The notes below the pieces were generated by a model. That model did not search any database. It saw only the letters and a list, made by a program, of their open reading frames with translations, and was not told the DNA's origin. A stretch of 64,000 nucleotides of DNA from an uncultured Bacteroidota bacterium (lineage in GTDB: Bacteria; Bacteroidota; Bacteroidia; Bacteroidales; P3), in NCBI GenBank assembly GCA_902800395.1, contig CADCEC010000012.1, positions 46,008 through 110,007 of the forward strand, read 5' to 3'. This document shows, piece after piece, positions 55,331 through 63,554 of this stretch. Numbering within the stretch: the stretch's first letter is position 1; each line of letters starts with the position of its first letter. Made by a program: the position numbers and the translations under genes.

Positions 55331-55345
55331 AACCTATAACCCCTC
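55313..55345. repeat. aacctataaccc tandem micro-repeat
   Basis: Units aacctataaccc and ataacc repeat across the boundary between two genes and include the ATG of the lipoprotein gene. Confidence 0.75.
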
Positions 55346-56837
55346 ATAGTTTCACCAGTTTCGCGCTGACCCCTTTGAACTGCGGCATCGTCTCGCCAAC
55401 GGGTGCTCCGATATAGGTGGGGTCGCACACCGTGTAACGGCGGCCGTCGACGGTAAAGTAGTCGCCGTCCACGGCCTCGGGAAAGGCTACCGCAGTCCCC
55501 AGGTGGCCGGGCCAGTTCACAAGCACTACGTCGAGACCCAGCAGGTCGCGCACCAGGATGCTGTAGAAGATGGAGCGGTCCTCACAGTCGTTCTTGGGGT
55601 AGAAAATGCTCTCGTCGGCGAAGAGGGGGCGCTCGTAGCCGAATTGTTCCTGGTCGGTGGCGTAGTCGAAGGCCGTCTGCACGAAGTCGAGCAGCATCCC
55701 GGCGGCTTTCTTCTTGCTCTTGCCTTCTATCTGGCTGCGGAGGGCGGGATAGAGCACGGCCTTCACACCGTCACTGAGGCCCGCCAGCGCGTAGTATTCC
55801 CAGGCGTCGCTCAACGGGTAGTCGCCCAGATAGTCTATCAGGCTCTGTGCCACCTCCACGGTGGCCTTCATGGTGCCGAATTGCTCGGCCTGCAGCGTGC
55901 GACGCTTCTTCTGCGTGCCGCCGAGGTCGGGCAACTGCCCCATCAGTATGTTGGCCGTCTGCTCGCGGGGGAAGGCCACATTGCAGACATATATGCCGTC
56001 CTTCCCCTTCGGAGCAAGCATATAGTACTTCGTACCATCGAGAGTGATAAAGGAGTAGTTATATAGAATCCTGTTGAAAGGCATCAGCAGCACCAGGTGG
56101 TTGTCACGCCGTGCGATGCGGACGTTGTAGCCCGACTGCGCCAGAAGGTACATCTGCAGTAAGGTGGCTTCGTTGCTGCCCTTGCCCAGCAGGCGTTCGC
56201 TCATGCTACCCAGCAGGCGCAGGTAGCCCCAGTCGGAGAGGTGCAGCGCTTCGCGCTGCGCTATGCAGTCGTGCAGCAGGCCGTCGTACTTCTTCTGTGA
56301 CAGCTGCTTCCATGCCGCGGCGATGCTCTTCTCCTCCAGCGACGGGAGCTTGAAGCGCAGCCCGTCGACGGCGGTATGTACGTCGCAGGTGGCGCCGTAA
56401 AAGGCGAACTGCATCGTCGGTGCCGCGGGCTCTGCCTCGGGGATGGCGGGCAGCGGCACAGGGTCGAGCTTGGCCGGCGGCGTCACTTCGCTCTGCGGCA
56501 GGGGGGTGGTGGTAGGGATCTTGTCCACCGGTGGTTTCGGAGGTTTGGGAGGTTCCGGCTCTTTGGGTTTGGGGATAGCAGTCTGCACGCCCATCTGCGC
56601 CCATGCCTGCTGTACCGCGGCGGCATACTCCTCGTTGGCCTTCTGGCGGAACGCCGCGAACTCCTCCTCAGCCTTGCGCCGTTCTTCGTTGTACTGCTGC
56701 TGCATCTGTCCTCGCTGCCGTTCATACTGCTCGCGCATCTGCTGCTGCCGTTTCCTGAAAGTTTCGGGGTCCACCTGCGCCGTGGCCGTTGCGGCCAGCA
56801 GCAAGGTCATTAGGAATAGTGCCGATTGTTTCATCAT
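55344..56837 (-). CDS. Exported transglutaminase-like protein with coiled coil
   Basis: About 497 aa from M-M-K-Q-S-A-L-F (56837); the upstream TTG at 56852 lies in a repeat and is less likely. Signal peptide, then a Gln/Glu/Arg coiled coil (about 25-80), a Pro-rich linker with repeated P-K-P-P and P-P-V-D (about 95-145), and a C-terminal transglutaminase-like domain with N-D-C-E-D-R-S (catalytic Cys), W-P-G-H-L-G-T-A-V (His) and C-D-P-T-Y-I-G (Asp). Probably a periplasmic or surface protease or crosslinker. Upstream are four copies of a 32-bp periodic motif. Confidence 0.8.
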   Translation of the reverse strand: MMKQSALFLMTLLLAATATAQVDPETFRKRQQQMREQYERQRGQMQQQYNEERRKAEEEFAAFRQKANEEYAAAVQQAWAQMGVQTAIPKPKEPEPPKPPKPPVDKIPTTTPLPQSEVTPPAKLDPVPLPAIPEAEPAAPTMQFAFYGATCDVHTAVDGLRFKLPSLEEKSIAAAWKQLSQKKYDGLLHDCIAQREALHLSDWGYLRLLGSMSERLLGKGSNEATLLQMYLLAQSGYNVRIARRDNHLVLLMPFNRILYNYSFITLDGTKYYMLAPKGKDGIYVCNVAFPREQTANILMGQLPDLGGTQKKRRTLQAEQFGTMKATVEVAQSLIDYLGDYPLSDAWEYYALAGLSDGVKAVLYPALRSQIEGKSKKKAAGMLLDFVQTAFDYATDQEQFGYERPLFADESIFYPKNDCEDRSIFYSILVRDLLGLDVVLVNWPGHLGTAVAFPEAVDGDYFTVDGRRYTVCDPTYIGAPVGETMPQFKGVSAKLVKL

Positions 56838-57240
56838 TACAACTTTTTTCAATTTTAAAAGCCTTTTTTCACAACTTTTTCCATTTTTATCGACCGCTTT
56901 TTACAACTTTTTCCATTTTTTTAGCTCAATATTCACAACTTTTTCCTTTCAGGCGGTTTTCCATAGAGGGAATCAACTAAGCGGGTTATTACTAACAAAA
57001 CACTTACTTTTTTCGATCCCTTTCTATTGTACACTACCAATCTCATTTTCTTTCAGGCGTTTCTCGATAAGAGAGAAGAGACATCTTTTTTACCCGACGG
57101 AGTCGTCGCCGCTGCATAAACTGCAACGGCTACCAACACCGACGGACGGGCGGTCTACAACCGTTCCTCTTCGTTTGAGGCCTCTCCCCAAACCCGACAT
57201 GAATGTGTTTACTACGACGAAATCCATCTATCATACTAAG
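56838..57240. other. Intergenic region between transglutaminase-like gene and paralogue A
   Basis: No convincing gene. The left half has four copies of caacttttt spaced exactly 32 bp. The right half (57000-57240) shows no coding signal, promoter box or template-repeat-like sequence that I can see; its last 37 bp form the left arm of an inverted repeat. Confidence 0.6.
56840..56965. repeat. Four 32-bp-spaced copies of caactttttcca
   Basis: Copies begin at 56840, 56872, 56904 and 56936; spacing is exactly 32 bp each time. The shared core is 11-17 bp and the intervening bases differ. It lies directly upstream of the transglutaminase-like start. Confidence 0.85.
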
Positions 57241-57243
57241 CTA
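57204..57243. repeat. Left arm of a 40-bp inverted repeat flanking paralogue A
   Basis: The reverse complement of this segment matches 58653-58692 at about 32 of 40 positions (19 of the first 20). It begins at paralogue A's stop codon. Confidence 0.8.
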
Positions 57244-58460
57244 ATGGAGCACAACACGGAACCCGATGCTGTTGTCGCGGCTGCCAGGAGAGGAGTTGAA
57301 CCGATACGCAACGCGGCAGATTCCCGCGCTGTTGTACCAGCCACCACCGCGCAGAACGCGGTCAGAGCCTGTGCTGGCACCCTTTGGGTTGTTATTGTCG
57401 TACTGCAGGTACTGGCTGCCGTACCAGTCCTCGCACCACTCGTCGAGCCGTTGCTGTTGCCACGGTACCACGCCACGTCGTCGATGCTCCAGCCGCCGGC
57501 GTATTTTGTCCCCTCGTTTTTCTTTCCCCCGCGGGCAGCATACTCCCATTCGGCCTCGGTGGGAAGGCTGTAATTGCGGCCCGTCTGACGGCTCAGGCGG
57601 GCGCAGAACTCCTTGGCCTCTTCCCAACTCACATAGTACATCGGGTAATCGGGGCCCTCACCATATAAATAATATCTTGTACTGACTCTGTCTCTTTGCT
57701 GGCGGACCGATGTGCCCATCACCTTCTCCCATTGGCTCTGCGTCACCTCGAGCATGCCGATATAAAACGAGCCCACGGTGGTCATGCGGTTGGGCGACTC
57801 GTCGCTTTCGCACTCGCCACCTTGGTCGCTGGTACAACCCATGGTGAAGGTGCCACCCTCGACATAGACCATCTTCATATTGATGCCGAAAGCCGTCTCT
57901 GTAAAGTCCTGCCCACGCTGAGCTGTGACATTGCCTCCTGATGGGGGAAATGGGGTGTAGGAGTTGCCCCCACCGGAACCTCCGACATAACCAATCAGTT
58001 CCTGCGCCAGATCCTGGCACAGTTGGAACAAGTTTGCGTATGTTCCGTCCTTCAACATTCCATACTGCGTTGCAGGATTGGAAATTTCACCTGTTTCCAC
58101 CTCAATCAGATATGCTTCCAAATAGAACTGTGTGTTGCTTTTGGTAAGAGTGGATACACAAATATAGTCGGCACCCGACATCTCTCCCAGTTTCTTTCTT
58201 TGTGCATCAGATACCATACCTGATTTCTGGAATCCATGTTCTTTCATCAACTGGTCAATATCTGTGCGCGTAAAAGCCTGGAATCCTGCTTGGTTACTTA
58301 CCGCCTTGCGCAGCTCTCCTCGCACCATATTCATTTCTATACCTTTAACCTGAACGCTCTTGTCCCCATTGAGGGTTTCAAGCAAGGCAATCTTCTTCGG
58401 CTGCGACATGACAATAAACGGGAGCAACAGCGCAGCAGCAAAAAATAGTAATCTTCTCAT
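57241..58460 (-). pseudogene. Paralogue A: CsgG-like + FGE-sulfatase protein with DGR-like variable region, frameshifted
   Basis: Start M-R-R-L-L-F-F-A-A. A signal peptide, then a CsgG/LpoB-like domain (about 20-150; Q-P-K-K-I-A-L-L-E-T-L, H-G-F-Q-K-S-G-M-V, G-A-D-Y-I-C, V-E-T-G-E-I). An FGE-sulfatase domain follows from about 200 (V-E-G-G-T-F-T-M-G-C-T, W-E-E-A-K-E-F-C, L-P-T-E-A-E-W-E-Y-A-A-R). After D-D-V-A-W-Y-R-G-N-S the frame breaks at 57441/57442: the usual H-P-V-G to Y-D-M-S-G-N-V segment is missing. A second frame resumes at E-W-C-E-D-W-Y-G and ends G-F-R-V-V-L-H. Without repair the product lacks its variable tip. FGE-fold tips of this kind are common DGR targets. Confidence 0.8.
57253..57342 (-). 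other. DGR-like variable region of paralogue A
   Basis: About 30 codons. Residues that differ from paralogue B are all encoded by NNC/NNT-type codons derivable from AAC or AAT by adenine change (TAC, AGC, ATC, TTC, TCC, GAC). Invariant codons (TGG, GCG, TGC CGC GTT GCG, CGG, CCT GGC, GGG TTC CGT) lack template adenines. Confidence 0.8.
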
Positions 58461-58652
58461 ATCATAATTTTTCTGTATTGTCTTATCATTTATGGAGTAC
58501 ATACCTCCAGGAAGCCTATAGTTCCATCATATTACCATATACTCAACTCTTCTTCATCTAATACTCGACACATTGCGGCTTAAATTCTCCAATCGCCCCC
58601 TCGAACACTCAGTTTCGCGGCATGCTTCGCTGCATTATAATAAACCGAGCCA

Positions 58653-58692
58653 TAGCTTAGTATGATGGATGGGTTACATCGTAGTGAAACTA
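58653..58692. repeat. Right arm of the 40-bp inverted repeat
   Basis: Matches 57204-57243 in inverted orientation. It ends at paralogue B's stop codon. Confidence 0.8.
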
Positions 58693-59825
58693 ATGGAGCA
58701 CAATACGGAACCCGTTGTAGTTGTAGCGGCTGCCAGGACTGTTGTAGCTCCGACGCGCAACGCGGCAGCTCCCCGCGTTGTCGCCCCAGCTACCACCGCG
58801 CAGAACGCGGTCAGAGCCTGTGCTGGCACCCTTTGGGTTGTTATTGTCGTACTGCAGGTACTGGCTGCCGTACCAGTCCTCGCACCACTCGCGTATTTTG
58901 TCCCCTCGTTTTTCTTTCCCCCGCGGGCGGCATACTCCCACTCGGCCTCGGTGGGCAGGCTGTAGTTGCGACCTGTCTGACGGCTCAAGCGGGCACAGAA
59001 CTCCTTGGCTTCCTCCCAGCTCACATAATACATCGGGTAGTCGGAGCCTGCACCTTTTATGGGCCACTCCGAGTTTGCCTTATTGCGCTGCTGGTAGATG
59101 GAAGTCCCCATCACCTTCTCCCACTGGCTCTGCGTCACCTCAAGCATCCCGATATAGAACGAGCCTACGGTGGTCATGCGGTTGGGTGACTCATCACTAT
59201 CGCATTCGTTGCCTTGGTCACCGGTGCAACCCATGGTGAACGTGCCACCCTCAACATACACCATCCGCATGTTGATGCCAAAGGCCGTCTCGGTGAAGTC
59301 CTGACCTCGCTGGGTATTGACACCCGACGGAGGACGCGTTGCGTACCCTCCGCCATTGGTCGATCCTAACAAATCCGCCACCAACGACATACATGCTTTA
59401 TCCATTTCGTCGTCAGTAGTGGCCTTATAAGGTTTCGTGGAGTTTTCAATGCGTCCGCTTTCGATATTGATTATCTTGGCTGCAATCTTGTAGACTCCGC
59501 TGGAGCTACGTACTGCTTCTGCCACCAATATGGAACTGGCACCTGTAAGTCTGCCGATTTCCTTGATGTCATCGTCGCTGACCATACCGGTTCGCTGGAA
59601 GTTCTGTTCCTTGTTGATTTGCGCCATATCCACTCGGTCGTATCCCTCATATCCCAGTGTTTTGTTCACGGCATCAGTGATATATGCCCTGATTTGAAAT
59701 TCCATGTCATAGTCGACCATGTCCATTTTGTCGACAGTCTCCAATATGGCCACCATCTTGATTTTCTGCGCCATAGATAGCAGCGGAAGTGCCAGCATGG
59801 CGACAATCATCAGAATTCTCTTCAT
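58690..59825 (-). pseudogene. Paralogue B: CsgG-like + FGE-sulfatase protein with DGR-like variable region, frameshifted
   Basis: Start M-K-R-I-L-M-I-V-A. Same architecture as A: a CsgG-like domain with N-F-Q-R-T-G-M-V and G-A-S-S-I-L, then an FGE domain with V-E-G-G-T-F-T-M-G-C-T-G and L-P-T-E-A-E-W-E-Y. The deletion is larger: after K-N-E-G-T-K-Y-A the sequence jumps at 58890/58891 to E-W-C-E-D-W-Y-G, losing about 45 family residues and shifting frame. The 201 bp from that point to the stop equal paralogue A's except at adenine-type codons; upstream of the junction region the two genes differ by scattered silent changes. It follows paralogue C by 10 bp. Confidence 0.8.
58702..58791 (-). other. 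DGR-like variable region of paralogue B
   Basis: Same 90-bp layout as in A. B carries AGC, GGC, GAC, AAC, AGC, CGT, AGC, TAC, AAC where A carries other NNC/NNT codons. About 15 codon differences in all, none at non-adenine sites. Confidence 0.8.
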
Positions 59826-59835
59826 CTTTCAGTAA

Positions 59836-61038
59836 CTATTTTTCAGATTCGTATATTTGCTTCACCTCGTCTGATGACAGTATATATCTGTCATATATTC
59901 GGACATTGTCGAGTTTCATGGCGGGACCGCCGGCACCGAAATAGAGTTTGGTGCTCCCTTCAAAGTAGCTGTGCCCGTCATAATTGGCATTACCCTGATC
60001 CACCAGACTTCCGTCTATATATAGTTTAGAATCGCCTTTATTCACTGACAGTACAAAATGGTGCCATCCGGAGGCGATGTAACTGGAGGCGGAACAGCTA
60101 AAGTTGTATTTGCACTCGTGATAGCCGTTGGTGCTGTAAATCTTGAACGAGAATGTCTTGTTATCCACTGCGAAGTTTACAAAATGATAGGTATCCTTGA
60201 ACATCTTCATCAGGTTGCCCGAACTGAAATCCTTTGCCCAGAACGAGACGGTGAAGATATCCGTGTTGAAGAGTTGCGGCGAGAAGAAATAACGGTCTTT
60301 GTTCCCGGGTCCTTTCAGTTGCAAGGCCTTACCGTACCCATTGGAAGTCTCGTTAATGTATTTCACATCACCCATGATGTTACCGCCCATGTCGTTTCCT
60401 GTAATGTCCTTGCAGGTCCCATCGTCGAACGTCCAATAGGCAGAGAGGCCGCCTCTCGCGGCAATATTCTTGTTCGGCTGCGGCAGTCCGACATTGCGAC
60501 CCGCGATGTAGGCCTCGGCATTGTCGTTGCCGGATGCCGGGGTTGATGGTGGCGGGGTGGTCATTTGTGGCAGGCTGCCGCCATGCAGCAGCTTGTATGC
60601 AAGGCTCTTGCAGCCGGCCTGCACGGCCACCGGGTTGTAGTCCATCAGTTCGTTGTCGGACATGTCGTATTGTCCGGTCTCCACATTGAGCACCTTGGCC
60701 GTGACAAACAGCTGCCTGCCGTCGAGCAGCACGGCCTCCGAAGCCAGCACGTAGTCCACCCCCGCCATCTTGCCCAGTTGACGAATTTCCTCGTCGTTCA
60801 CCATACCCGAACGCTGGAAGTTGTGTTCTTTCAGCAGCGTGGCAACCTGTGCGCGGTTGTAGGCCATATACTCCTTGTTGTTGATAATGCCAGTCTCAAG
60901 GTTGCTGCTAACCATGGTCAGGTAACCATTGGCGACGGAACCATCAGCGGAACGAGTCTCAAGGATGGCAATCTTCTTCTGCGCAGAAGCAGAAAAAGAG
61001 GCCGCCAGTAAAAACAATATGATAAAGATACGCCTCAT
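59836..61038 (-). CDS. Paralogue C: CsgG-like + LamG-like protein
   Basis: 400 aa with a signal peptide. The CsgG-like domain (about 20-150) has K-K-I-A-I-L-E-T-R, N-F-Q-R-S-G-M-V, G-V-D-Y-V-L-A and V-E-T-G-Q. After a Pro/Ser linker, the C-terminal about 200 residues form a LamG/concanavalin-like jelly roll (Y-W-T-F-D-D-G, F-T-V-S-F-W-A-K-D, G-W-H-H-F-V-L-S-V, L-Y-I-D-G-S-L-V, L-D-N-V-R-I-Y-D-R). LamG-3 domains bind glycans or proteins. The frame is intact. The end D-E-V-K-Q-I-Y-E-S-E-K is shared with D. It lies 12 bp after paralogue D's stop. Confidence 0.85.
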   Translation of the reverse strand: MRRIFIILFLLAASFSASAQKKIAILETRSADGSVANGYLTMVSSNLETGIINNKEYMAYNRAQVATLLKEHNFQRSGMVNDEEIRQLGKMAGVDYVLASEAVLLDGRQLFVTAKVLNVETGQYDMSDNELMDYNPVAVQAGCKSLAYKLLHGGSLPQMTTPPPSTPASGNDNAEAYIAGRNVGLPQPNKNIAARGGLSAYWTFDDGTCKDITGNDMGGNIMGDVKYINETSNGYGKALQLKGPGNKDRYFFSPQLFNTDIFTVSFWAKDFSSGNLMKMFKDTYHFVNFAVDNKTFSFKIYSTNGYHECKYNFSCSASSYIASGWHHFVLSVNKGDSKLYIDGSLVDQGNANYDGHSYFEGSTKLYFGAGGPAMKLDNVRIYDRYILSSDEVKQIYESEK

Positions 61039-61050
61039 GGCAAATAGTGT

Positions 61051-62265
61051 TTATTTCTCGGAGTTGTAGATTTGCTTGACTTCGGCATTGGTGAGTAGTC
61101 GACTGTAAAACCTTACATTGTCAAGTTTGAATGATGTGGGATTATAGCCAGCATCTAAAAAGCCTTCAACATGACCGCCAAATACTATTTTTGGATTGCT
61201 TCCATCATAAAACTGTATTTTATCGGTCATACGTCCATCTACATACAAGTAATGTATGCCTCCACTGAAACAATATGTGATGTGATGCCATCCGGAAGAC
61301 TGCAAAGTACTGGCATCACATGAAAAATTGTAGCCGTTAGCGACTGTGGCATATCCAGCCTCAAATAAAGCCAGAGTACTATTGGGCGAACAGCCAAATT
61401 TAATAGGGCTTGGTCCATCTCCTCCAGCGAATATTAACCCAGCACCAAAATCCTTAATCCAGAAGCACAGGCTCCAATTCCCATTGCTTTTTTCAATAAG
61501 ATTGTACGGTATCATCAGACGCTGTTTTTTCGAGGCTTGAAGAAAAACAGCCTTGCCATATCCATTGGGTGTCTCGTTTAAAAACTTGGGGCTCCCAACC
61601 AGGCTACCGTCATATCCGTTATCCGTAGCATCATCGGCGTTGTCGCCATCAAAGGTCCAATAGGCAACAAGCCCTGCCTTCACTGCAATATCTTTGTTGG
61701 GCTGAGGCAGACCGACGTTGCGGCCGCTGACGTTGGTTGCCTGGTAGTCGCTGTTGCTGATGGGATTGGTGCTTGGGGCGCGCACCTCCTGCGGCGTGCT
61801 CCCTTCTCCCAGCAGTTTGGCCGCCAGGTTCTGACAACCACGCTGAATGGCACTTGGATTGTAGTCCATCAGTTCATTGTCTGACATTTCATATTGACCC
61901 GTCACCACATTTAATACCTTGGCTGCCACAAACACCTGTTGCTCAAGCAATGCAACTTCAGAGGCCAGCACATAATCCACGCCTGCCATCTGACCCAAAC
62001 GACGTATGTCGTCATCCTTGACCAAGCCGGAACGTTGGAATTGATGTTCTGTCATCAAAGCTTTTACCTGTGCACGATTATATGCGGTGTACTGGGGGTT
62101 TTTAATAATCCCCGTCTCGAGATTGCTGCCAATCATCATCAGATATGAATTACTGAGTTTACCGTCGGAGCAGTATGTTTCAAGAATAGCCACAGATTTT
62201 GTCTGTGCCATAGCCGTCATTGATACGATTGACAGCAGTACAATAATAATAATGCTTTTATTCAT
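61051..62265 (-). CDS. Paralogue D: CsgG-like + LamG-like protein
   Basis: 404 aa, intact, closely similar to C in order and length. CsgG-like part: K-S-V-A-I-L-E-T-Y, Q-F-Q-R-S-G-L-V, G-V-D-Y-V-L-A. LamG part: Y-W-T-F-D-G-D-N-A-D-D, W-S-L-C-F-W-I-K-D, G-W-H-H-I-T-Y-C-F, L-Y-V-D-G-R, L-D-N-V-R-F-Y-S-R. A local duplication with C is likely. No variable-region signature is seen in its C-terminus. Confidence 0.85.
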   Translation of the reverse strand: MNKSIIIIVLLSIVSMTAMAQTKSVAILETYCSDGKLSNSYLMMIGSNLETGIIKNPQYTAYNRAQVKALMTEHQFQRSGLVKDDDIRRLGQMAGVDYVLASEVALLEQQVFVAAKVLNVVTGQYEMSDNELMDYNPSAIQRGCQNLAAKLLGEGSTPQEVRAPSTNPISNSDYQATNVSGRNVGLPQPNKDIAVKAGLVAYWTFDGDNADDATDNGYDGSLVGSPKFLNETPNGYGKAVFLQASKKQRLMIPYNLIEKSNGNWSLCFWIKDFGAGLIFAGGDGPSPIKFGCSPNSTLALFEAGYATVANGYNFSCDASTLQSSGWHHITYCFSGGIHYLYVDGRMTDKIQFYDGSNPKIVFGGHVEGFLDAGYNPTSFKLDNVRFYSRLLTNAEVKQIYNSEK

Positions 62266-62330
62266 AATTTGATACTCTTGTTATTGTGTATGAAATGAGA
62301 AATGACTAATAGACCATTATTAATTATAAA

Positions 62331-63554
62331 CTAAGGGACTAACACCACACGGAACCCGCTGTTGCTGCCGCGGAAGCCGGGACTGCTGAAGCTCCGATTC
62401 GCAACGCGGCAGATCCTCGCGTTGCCGCCCCAGCAGCCACCGCGCAGCACGCGGTCGTAGCCTGAGTTAGAACCCATCGGGTCGGTCTGGCTTGCACTGC
62501 CATAGTCACCATACCAATCCTGGCACCACTCACACACATTGCCGCTCATGTCGTAGACACCCAATTCGTTTGGGCGCAGGCGTCCTACAGGATGCGTCTG
62601 GCTGCCGCTATTGCCATCATACCATGCTACGGCAGCCACACTGGAGCCTCCACTGTATTTGGCATTAGTCGACTTTTTGCCGCCCCTCGCCGCATATTCC
62701 CATTCCGCCTCTGTGGGTAGGCTGAAACGACGACCCGTTATGCGGCTCAACTCGGCGCAGAAGTCCTGTGCATCGTTCCAACTCACATTCTCCACCGGCC
62801 GATCAAAAGCCTTCCAGTTGCTGGGGTTGACTCCCATTACCGCCTCATATAATTCTTGCGTTACCTCAAACTTGCCAATGTAGTAGTCCTGGGTGATGGT
62901 CACACGATGATAAGGACTCTCGCTGCCCCAACAATCACTCCCCTGCTCACTTGTACAGCCCATAACAAAGCTACCAGCTTCCACCTTCACCATGTCAAAA
63001 TTCACATTACCCACAGTGATGGTAATTACATTTTCCGCCTGCTTCTGAGGAGCTGCATTGCCCCCTTCAGAGCGAGTTGAGGTTTGGGAATTGCCTCCAG
63101 AACTGGAAAGCAGTCGTTTCGACATCTTTGTGCATGCGGACTTAATTTCGGGCACAGTATTTTGAGGTGTCTCTTGTACGGTACTTGATTTCCCGGACTC
63201 AACATCGAGAATCCTGACATTGAGTATAAAATACCCTTCTTCAATAGCACATTCGGGTACAATGACATACTGCACACCGGCCATTTTACCTGCTTGCTTC
63301 ATGTCTTCGTCTTCTACAGCCCCTGAAAGCTGGAAGTTATGTTCCGCGATAATGGCGTCGAACATAGCACGGTCGTATTTATTATAGCCAGGTGTATTGT
63401 CCACGGCCTCTTCTATGGCGCCACGCACCAATATGCACCTAGGCACCGAAATGTTATCACTCATACGCTGAACCTCCCACACGGCCACTTTCTTCTGGCC
63501 ATAACCCATAAATGCAATACTCACAAAGACAATCAAAAATAACGCTCTTTTCAT
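62331..63554 (-). CDS. Paralogue E: CsgG-like + FGE-sulfatase protein with DGR-like variable region (intact)
   Basis: 407 aa, uninterrupted. Signal peptide, CsgG-like domain (K-K-V-A-V-W-E-V, N-F-Q-L-S-G-A-V, G-V-Q-Y-V-I-V), Ser/Asn-rich linker, then a full FGE-sulfatase domain including the segment that A and B lack (Q-T-H-P-V-G-R-L-R-P-N-E-L-G, Y-D-M-S-G-N-V-C-E-W-C-Q-D-W-Y). It ends R-V-L-R-G-G-C-W-G-G-N-A, then C-R-V-A-N-R and G-F-R-V-V-L-V-P. Genuine FGE needs active-site cysteines; here the domain is more likely a ligand-binding scaffold. It is a reference for what A and B should look like. Confidence 0.88.
   Translation of the reverse strand: MKRALFLIVFVSIAFMGYGQKKVAVWEVQRMSDNISVPRCILVRGAIEEAVDNTPGYNKYDRAMFDAIIAEHNFQLSGAVEDEDMKQAGKMAGVQYVIVPECAIEEGYFILNVRILDVESGKSSTVQETPQNTVPEIKSACTKMSKRLLSSSGGNSQTSTRSEGGNAAPQKQAENVITITVGNVNFDMVKVEAGSFVMGCTSEQGSDCWGSESPYHRVTITQDYYIGKFEVTQELYEAVMGVNPSNWKAFDRPVENVSWNDAQDFCAELSRITGRRFSLPTEAEWEYAARGGKKSTNAKYSGGSSVAAVAWYDGNSGSQTHPVGRLRPNELGVYDMSGNVCEWCQDWYGDYGSASQTDPMGSNSGYDRVLRGGCWGGNARICRVANRSFSSPGFRGSNSGFRVVLVP
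62355..62435 (-). other. DGR-like variable region of paralogue E
   Basis: TGC, GGC, GGC, AAC, AGG, ATC, AAT, AGC, TTC, AGC, AGT, TTC, GGC, AGC, AAC, AGC at the positions variable in A and B, with the same invariant W, A, CRVA, R, PG, R and GFR scaffold. Confidence 0.75.

Follow-up and report, generated by a model that had tools for sequence, protein, structure and literature searches.

Putative orphaned targets of an HRDC-type diversity-generating retroelement in a Bacteroidales genome, and complementary flanks of template and variable repeats in related loci

The HRDC-type diversity-generating retroelement (DGR) of Treponema denticola forms, according to the available text of PMC4891356, a compact cluster in which the HRDC accessory gene overlaps the reverse transcriptase (RT) gene and several targets bear variable regions (VRs), and the loci described here are built likewise. 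They differ in their FGE targets, their Bacteroidales lineage, the position of the template repeat (TR) after the RT gene (in the congeners G106 and G028) and the absence of the cassette from the window, that is, the whole 64,000-nucleotide stretch under analysis. The same text uses none of the words 'complementary', 'inverted' or 'hairpin' and makes no mention of complementarity between TR and VR flanks. The DGR of BPP-1 (NC_005357, 20,000 bases) shares the adenine-specific VR, a structured spacer after the TR and a homing-promoting element directly 3' of the VR, as far as the accessible portions of PMC3240598 and PMC12875486 describe it. It differs in having Avd rather than an HRDC protein and its TR before the RT; moreover, the element beside its VR folds on itself into a hairpin whose loop is sequence-specific, and the complementarity of its flanks is marginal (score 12.3, p about 0.01). 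Homing persists when the stem of this element is given another sequence, provided that a stem still forms (PMC3240598, in the part available), and pairing of the stem with TR RNA is therefore not required in BPP-1. In groups 2 and 3 of the DiGReF survey (PMC3521204), the TR lies downstream of the RT gene or overlaps it, as in the relatives studied here; the accessible text of the survey mentions a VR hairpin, and no flank complementarity. The FGE-sulfatase or sulfatase-modifying-factor-like domain (PF03781) serves in our loci as the scaffold for variation behind an N-terminal part.

Variable regions of two FGE paralogues

The window contains three FGE paralogues (A, B and E) for which the first-pass annotation, made from the letters of the sequence, had proposed DGR-type VRs:

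57231-58502, minus strand: N-terminal portion of paralogue A with the beginning of its FGE domain; the frame is interrupted near 57441
57241-57371, minus strand: VR of A, 131 nt including the stop codon, with the A/B differences in about 57253-57342
57441-57442, minus strand: junction of the deletion in A, which lacks 64 bp that the intact G106 target has, with a frameshift
58674-59825, minus strand: N-terminal portion of paralogue B with the beginning of its FGE domain; loss of 121 bp interrupts the frame near 58890
58690-58820, minus strand: VR of B, 131 nt
62331-63554, minus strand: paralogue E, unbroken FGE-domain protein with a VR-like C-terminus and no DGR flank

All three match PF03781 (FGE-sulfatase) in Pfam, which agrees, at the level of sequence family, with the FGE/C-type-lectin-type target suggested at their C-termini. 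The N-terminal part of A gave a weak LpoB match below the cut-off, and a structure model of E (mean pLDDT 50.5, built from 5 sequences) was too poor for use. Alignment to the intact G106 target located the frameshifts in A and B, unremarked before, at gaps of 64 bp and 121 bp, from which we infer that both are probably pseudogenes. The ends of the two gaps lie ≤2 nt apart, both beside the same GAGTGG, and each deletion is flanked on both sides by a block identical between the paralogues. We found no explanation for the near-identical 3' end of the two deletions; causation by the DGR was considered and is unsupported.

Over the last 201 nt, codons 1-33 of A and B are identical and 15 codons (21 nucleotides) differ within codons 34-63, confirming the earlier count of about 15 differing codons. 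When the TRs of five relatives are laid over this region, TR adenines hold 18 or 19 of the 21 differences versus 15-21 of the 108-110 A/B-identical positions (Fisher p 9e-9 to 2e-10); for one congener TR, the figures are 18/21 and 19/110 (p 2e-9). The claim that every difference falls on a template adenine, with all other positions unchanged, is therefore too strong: VR positions 49 and 116 (0-based) are non-adenine in all five TRs, and position 81 is so in four of the five. Compared with the G028 TR (locus L064), the mismatches of A number 19 at the 37 TR adenines and 6 at the 94 remaining sites, and those of B 16/37 and 7/94; E differs at 22/37 adenine sites but also at 14/94 others, and its 3' flank is neither TR-type nor VR-type. 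These comparisons with relatives' TRs support DGR variable regions at the ends of A and B, as proposed, whereas E would at best be a former target: because it has no DGR flank and more non-adenine differences, it was ruled out as a third active target.

A cassette missing from the locus

Among the congeners of the window lineage, which come from rumen samples, two carry an intact cassette at the same locus. In both G106 and G028, it consists of an FGE target, an HRDC accessory gene, a DGR RT gene (motifs IGNLTSQ, of the GxxxSQ form, and YMDD), an AAC-rich TR placed after the RT, and a spacer. It is bordered by the FGE target on one side and, on the other, by the counterpart of window gene 55344-56852. 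The G028 accessory matches PF00570 (E 4e-13), and PF03781 was found in the one G106 and one G028 target scanned. Mismatches between VR and TR in L063 (two VRs) and L064 fall on 17-18 adenines and on 0 other positions. In the window, the accessory gene, RT and TR are missing exactly where the relatives carry the cassette, and A runs on into the spacer of the TR:

55344-56852, minus strand: 502-aa protein without a Pfam match, similar to the product of a gene next to the intact cassette of G106 and G028
57093-57240, minus strand: what is left of the DGR spacer (Sp), which in relatives comes after the TR; it keeps its predicted hairpins, and its far end is approximate
57208-57240, minus strand: TR-type (not VR-type) 3' flank directly after the stop codon of A, matching the TR flanks of G106 and G028
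57240-57241, minus strand: join; at this point relatives have the VR flank, the genes for the HRDC accessory and the DGR RT, and the TR
58657-58689, minus strand: VR-type 3' flank of B, the reverse complement of the TR-type flank after A

The flanks of B and A pair over 33 nt ungapped with a score of 22.0 (maximum of 2000 shuffles, 15.0). A pattern built from these flanks was found at 7 places in 120 genomes of the genus, all of them known TR-side or VR-side flanks of the window's assembly (G000), G028 and G106, and the reversed pattern at 0 places. An Rfam search across 56800-58800 returned nothing up to E 1.

The window's assembly is 94.64% complete in 21 contigs. No DGR-type RT was found in the window or on any contig, the DGR-RT alignment being unmatched; there was no separate TR, the only three VR-like places being A, B and E. 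An HRDC accessory was likewise not found, the one resemblance being a 28%-identical stretch inside a 780-aa frame. The earlier statement that the window holds no RT or template therefore stands, and it extends to the whole 21-contig assembly. The single PF00078 match is excluded as the missing DGR RT by its motifs (QGAPTSP/YADD) and retron-type family matches. One full copy of the spacer is present, fused to A. Since a similar gene borders the cassette in both congeners, the gene at 55344-56852 probably marks the far edge of the loss. The relatives support placing the cassette at the window locus, and A and B appear to have been orphaned, through deletion or assembly collapse.

Complementary flanks in an RT clade

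In most members of a clade of HRDC-type DGRs, about 30 nt following the TR are reverse-complementary to about 30 nt following the VR of the same locus, and the sequences involved vary from locus to locus. The genome-contig search kept the best 80 of 334 relatives and the viral search the best 80 of 202. Scanning for VRs only within each locus, we obtained 94 TR-VR pairs from 109 loci and removed scores <44, minus-strand hits in genome-contig loci, one plus-strand L148 hit, sequence duplicates (several loci occurred twice) and flanks <60 nt. The resulting 76 pairs comprise 59 from the clade, 9 from outside it and 8 from loci not in the RT tree. In this set, which draws on the best 80 of 334 relatives, 41/76 pairs scored above the best of 200 shuffles, versus 2/70 phage-contig pairs (best 80 of 202). 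When the flanks were 48 nt long, the true partner took top rank among all 76 for 33 pairs and 38/76 pairs exceeded the 99% cross-locus level, a level passed by only 2/73 of 5' flanks, 5/76 in direct orientation and 6/70 phage-contig DGRs (best 80 of 202). Windows from -14 to +48 raised the count to 51/76. A further 15 order-level pairs were collected, of which 6 duplicating the first set were left out and 5/9 passed. With extended windows, 8/73 phage-contig pairs exceeded their own 99% level of 11.0. Flank pairing was accordingly rejected as a general DGR feature: phage-contig loci show it much less often, yet still in excess of the ~1% expected.

The RT tree comprised 147 distinct proteins, that of BPP-1 included, each from a locus in which a TR-VR pair had been identified (best 80 of 334 and best 80 of 202 relatives). 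At a pairing threshold of 15, 54/72 RTs in one clade (support 0.889) and 0/75 outside it had paired flanks; BPP-1, at 12.3 (p about 0.01), fell below. Among the clade members, 18/72 were under the threshold, 6 of them weak. An HRDC protein was encoded in the locus of 72/72 clade members versus 2/75 outside. Because phage-contig loci make up 65 of the outside set, the others being BPP-1 and 9 bacterial loci from the window's family, the effects of clade and habitat are partly confounded. One phage-contig locus, L167, lies inside the clade; it passes with extended windows and fails with 110-nt flanks. Pairing passed in 33/54 pairs with the TR after the RT and in 2/6 with the opposite order, and since the latter also include passing pairs, gene order was dismissed as the cause and RT clade or HRDC is the better predictor.

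The geometry of the match is tight. In the 38 clearest pairs, the segment starts at the TR end in 29 and 0-5 nt after the VR in 33, and it ends within -4 to +2 nt of an RAAC in 34. Matched bases average 87% of the segment. Transitions between the partners were wobble-compatible rather than not at 50:2, 31:0 and 12:4 in three subsets (score cut-offs 11.7, 15 and 9.5), summing to 93:6; the cross-locus control, at 143:70, is itself biased about 2:1 toward wobble, and the difference from it is significant (p 4e-8), with the order-level subset by itself at 12:4 (p 0.077). Mismatches were expected to concentrate in the GGAN loop and did not (0.19 versus 0.16, 38 clearest pairs). Self-folding is possible for both flanks: the TR flanks have on average 49% of bases paired in the predicted self-fold, and columns 2-32 of A2 also fold on themselves; the VR segments, where a BPP-1-like target would have a self-hairpin with a GRNA loop, fold weakly alone (0 to -10.6 kcal/mol, 38 pairs). 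In these 38 pairs, the predicted duplex (RNA parameters) reaches -24 to -63 kcal/mol versus 0 to -10.6 for either self-fold, and 24/50 wobble mismatches lie outside the TR self-fold.

Probable orphaned targets and a candidate RNA guide

We consider it likely that A and B are true targets of an HRDC-type DGR that formerly lay between A and 55344-56852 and is now lost, with flanks that in its relatives would pair. On the simplest route, A's VR (~130 bp) would have recombined with the TR; this would have joined that VR to the TR's spacer and deleted A's VR flank, the HRDC accessory and RT genes, and the TR itself, leaving A and B frozen. The loss is seen in one assembly, and its join lies inside the TR/VR repeat, where assemblers are prone to collapse. 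An assembler may thus have skipped from A's VR to the spacer of the TR although the organism itself retains the cassette, and the deletions in A and B would then be further assembly errors, a reading also favoured by the identical block on both sides of the deletions and their ends ≤2 nt apart. We hold this to be the lesser possibility, as no DGR RT, HRDC accessory, TR or second full spacer was found on the 21 contigs and the deletion ends show by eye no long shared repeat, unlike k-mer collapse. In addition, the TR-flank/VR-flank pair of the window has 3 non-wobble transitions and 1 wobble transition versus 6:93 in intact DGRs (p 0.002 on 4 events), mismatches that would fit release from selection. 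The first-pass annotation had read the paralogues as remote targets of a DGR elsewhere in the genome, and part of the genome is indeed missing from the 94.64% complete assembly; this is now very unlikely, given that the sole full spacer is joined to A, that RT and TR occupy this same locus in G106 and G028, and that the genome search proposed with that reading found neither RT nor template in an assembly that is not complete. Ordinary divergence of FGE paralogues could draw on the W..A..CRVA..R..PG..R..GFR scaffold, which recurs among such paralogues of the genus, but for A and B it is already refuted by the 18/21 versus 19/110 adenine contrast (p 2e-9) and the identity of the preceding 33 codons, and we give it practically no credence.

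For intact relatives, the most likely course is that of other DGRs: an adenine-error-prone RT copies the TR RNA and the cDNA replaces the VR. To this we would add a step in which the ~30 nt of TR RNA just past the TR pair with the coding strand just past the VR, which would dock template RNA and cDNA at the VR's 3' edge and single out the VR, not the TR, for rewriting. We infer both the RNA-target pairing and its role in homing from sequence comparison, and propose with modest confidence that HRDC-type DGRs find their targets by RNA guidance, with a ~30-nt guide behind the TR and its partner on the coding strand behind each VR. If priming occurs from a spacer adenosine as in BPP-1, the cDNA would start at the RAAC that ends the guide, and guide RNA and cDNA would then make up a single strand, collinear with the antisense strand of the target. 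Because VRs were scanned only within each locus, pairing within one transcript or with the target mRNA may also be involved.

Three other accounts of the flank match were weighed against guidance. A similar hairpin (cruciform or terminator) might be required at the TR and at the VR, the match being shared hairpin sequence with no pairing between the two, as the self-folding of the TR flanks (49% of bases paired on average) and the VR hairpin needed by BPP-1 (PMC3240598, accessible part) would allow; the low direct-orientation match (5/76 above the 99% level), a duplex far stronger than the self-folds (-24 to -63 versus 0 to -10.6 kcal/mol) and the 24/50 wobble mismatches outside the TR self-fold make this unlikely. 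An antisense regulator, in which TR RNA pairs with the end of the target mRNA, would use identical base pairs, and the wobble bias suits RNA-RNA pairing; we think it a little unlikelier still, as the close abutment to TR end, VR end and RAAC fits homing better. Finally, rewriting of the VR flank from the TR RNA flank during homing would likewise predict an inverted match beside every VR, as a by-product of copying; matched bases would then be near 100% rather than 87% on average, and copying alone does not explain differences that favour wobble pairs, so that we regard this account as improbable.

Returning to guidance, we found no earlier description of within-locus complementarity between TR and VR flanks in the portions of the literature available to us; it is apparently new, though an earlier account may exist. 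How mutagenised cDNA enters the variable repeat is incompletely understood (PMC12875486, in the text accessible), and for this RT clade the flank match gives a testable answer, including how VR is told from TR. If true, the guide would explain why the VR and not the TR is rewritten, how one template serves several targets and why the exchange has a fixed 3' edge, and guides would constitute a searchable targeting code. The match also provides a sequence rule for true targets and dead loci; applied to the window, the rule admits B as a target and excludes E. The window itself seems to offer a natural example of targets that have lost their DGR and still bear a legible scar.

Paralogues and their variable regions

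The window covers bases 46008-110007 of contig C12 (110,007 bases) and ends where the contig ends. Its minus strand carries five paralogues (A-E) whose N-terminal parts are visibly alike by eye, with an FGE-sulfatase domain (PF03781) forming the C-terminal end of A, B and E and a LamG-type domain that of C and D:

57231-58502, minus strand: A, FGE-sulfatase paralogue
58674-59825, minus strand: B, FGE-sulfatase paralogue
59836-62265, minus strand: C and D, N-terminal parts like those of the FGE targets, C-terminus LamG/ConA-like
62331-63554, minus strand: E, FGE-sulfatase paralogue

The binding domain of C and D looks as if it had been exchanged relative to the FGE targets. A and B are both broken, the FGE domain opening in one frame and closing in another. 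Relative to the intact target of G106, a congener, 64 bp are missing from A and 121 bp from B; the two deletions shift the frame alike, and their ends lie at most 2 nt apart beside the same GAGTGG. Because A and B are identical in sequence on either side of the deletions, gene conversion or duplication is suggested.

In the final 201 nt of A and B, a run of 33 identical codons is followed by 30 codons within which 15 differ, by 21 nucleotides in all. The first-pass annotation had derived every one of these differences from template adenines, which holds for most: depending on which of five relatives' template repeats (TRs) is used for comparison, 18 or 19 of the 21 differences coincide with a TR adenine, as do 15-21 of the 108-110 A/B-identical positions, but at two of the 21 none of the five TRs has an adenine. 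Paralogue E, also proposed to carry a variable region (VR) of the diversity-generating retroelement (DGR) type, agrees with that proposal in differing from the TR of a second congener, G028, at 22 of 37 adenines, but departs from it in differing at 14 of 94 other sites too.

The cassette in two congeners and its apparent loss in the window's assembly

Among 120 genus genomes, the window's own included, the closest relatives of A's tail occur in G106 and G028, where the order is FGE target, accessory gene, reverse transcriptase (RT), TR, structured spacer and the counterpart of the window gene at 55344-56852. The accessory protein is 156 aa long; that of G028 has an HRDC domain (Pfam) and that of G106 belongs to the same family. 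The RT carries the motifs IGNLTSQ and YMDD, and the TR reads ...RGGSWNNNA(K/R)NCRV(S/A)NRNNNTP(D/S)NRNNNNGFRVVLH.

A genome search for a DGR-type RT and its template, proposed in the first pass, found in the source assembly (2.4 Mb, 21 contigs, rated 94.64% complete) three VR-like places and one RT, of retron type; a DGR-RT alignment matched nowhere in these contigs. Nor was an HRDC accessory found in this assembly; the one similar stretch (28% identity) lies within a 780-aa frame that is presumably RecQ. One full spacer copy is present; the remaining matches are to B's flank and to stretches 14-22 nt long (E 0.2 or worse). The single RT (L001, G000:C1:141210-144767) is a long protein, with 832 residues within the locus and a 1003-residue open frame. 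It is extended at the N-terminus and has a long C-terminal part; its best PADLOC matches, RT-Protease_XI and RT-TIR_XII, span about residues 128-431.

Directly after A lie the TR's flank and spacer, not a VR-type flank. What is missing therefore runs from A's VR flank to the TR, and the loss ends within the TR/VR repeat. In the simplest history, VR-TR recombination would have removed the cassette; the main rival is that assembly collapse produced the apparent loss, which is known from one assembly. The predicted hairpins of the spacer behind A are still present. Beyond this spacer remnant, a short non-coding stretch (window 56840-56950) holds several near-copies of CAACTTTTTCC.

Complementarity of the TR and VR flanks

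The sequence flanking the TR on its 3' side in G106 and G028 is the reverse complement of that flanking each VR on its 3' side, and the window retains one half after A and its counterpart after B. A pattern search of the 120 genus genomes returned seven places (reversed control, 0): one TR-side and one VR-side copy in each of the window's assembly and G028, and one TR-side and two VR-side copies in G106. These matches follow by construction, as the pattern was read off those flanks; the informative part is the absence of any other place in the 120 genomes.

We then surveyed 109 loci (repeats included), comprising the best 80 of 334 RT relatives from named genomes, family loci and five further loci. 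A TR-VR pair, recognised by mismatches confined to adenines, was present in 86. Among 76 non-duplicate pairs, 41 exceeded the best of 200 shuffles. Using 48-nt flanks, the true partner was the top-ranked of 76 for 33 pairs, and 38 of 76 pairs exceeded the 99% cross-locus level, a measure passed by 2 of 73 pairs of 5' flanks, by 5 of 76 pairs when read in direct orientation, and by 6 of 70 phage-contig DGRs. Extended windows (-14 to +48) raised passing pairs to 51 of 76, and 5 of 9 further order-level pairs passed with them. One Verrucomicrobia MAG (L118) has a single TR and two VRs on opposite sides of the cassette, both with the complementary flank, and a named strain, Thermoflexibacter ruber DSM 9560 (L132), has an HRDC-type DGR with a flank match. 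Six phage-contig DGRs (L215, L217, L219, L220, L221 and L226) share a recurring complementarity of 12-16 nt, at about 14-42 of the TR flank and 19-54 of the VR flank, a geometry unlike that of the HRDC clade; none of the six singly exceeded the best of 200 shuffles.

Predicted duplexes (RNA parameters) range from -24 to -63 kcal/mol, far stronger than the self-folds. Scored between the TR sense strand and the VR coding strand, transitions between partners kept a wobble pair in 50/52, 31/31 and 12/16 cases in three subsets, versus 143/213 in cross-locus control alignments (p = 4e-8), although the bias was not significant in the order-level subset alone (p = 0.077). From its direction, the bias names TR RNA and the VR coding strand, or its mRNA, as the putative pairing strands. 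The window's own pair has 1 of 4 wobble-compatible transitions, which, small as the number is, is as it should be for a dead locus.

RT clade and a proposed model for priming

In a tree of 147 RTs, all 54 loci passing an extended-window score of >15 fall within one clade of 72 (support 0.889), and none of the 75 RTs outside it passes. Apart from BPP-1, those 75 come from 65 phage-contig loci and 9 bacterial loci of the window's family, so the clade effect is partly confounded with habitat. At the 48-nt level in the first set, 34 of 59 clade pairs passed versus 0 of 9 outside. An HRDC relative lies in the locus of 72/72 clade members versus 2/75 others.

Of the 38 clearest pairs, 29 have a TR segment beginning at the TR end and 33 a VR segment beginning 0-5 nt past the VR; in 34, an RAAC starts between -4 and +2 nt from the segment end (control: anywhere in 19 of 38 windows of 31 nt). 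In 36 of these pairs GGAN lies no further than 40 nt into the TR flank, compared with 16 of 38 inverted VR flanks and 14 of 38 control stretches.

In BPP-1, priming of the cDNA is from a spacer adenosine (PMC12875486). In the literature consulted, the closest statement to flank pairing is that the BPP-1 loop might contact a TR-containing RNA transcript (PMC3240598). The BPP-1 flank match itself is just marginal (score 12.3, p about 0.01). At this locus (L247, 1-20000), the match sets spacer nucleotides 22-41 against the VR hairpin's loop and 3' arm, as reverse complements.

We infer that HRDC-type DGRs may prime cDNA from the RAAC, in which case guide RNA and cDNA would together make a single strand that runs collinear with the antisense strand of the target across the edge of the VR. 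Because the TR's own flank would be incapable of such pairing, the TR would be spared.
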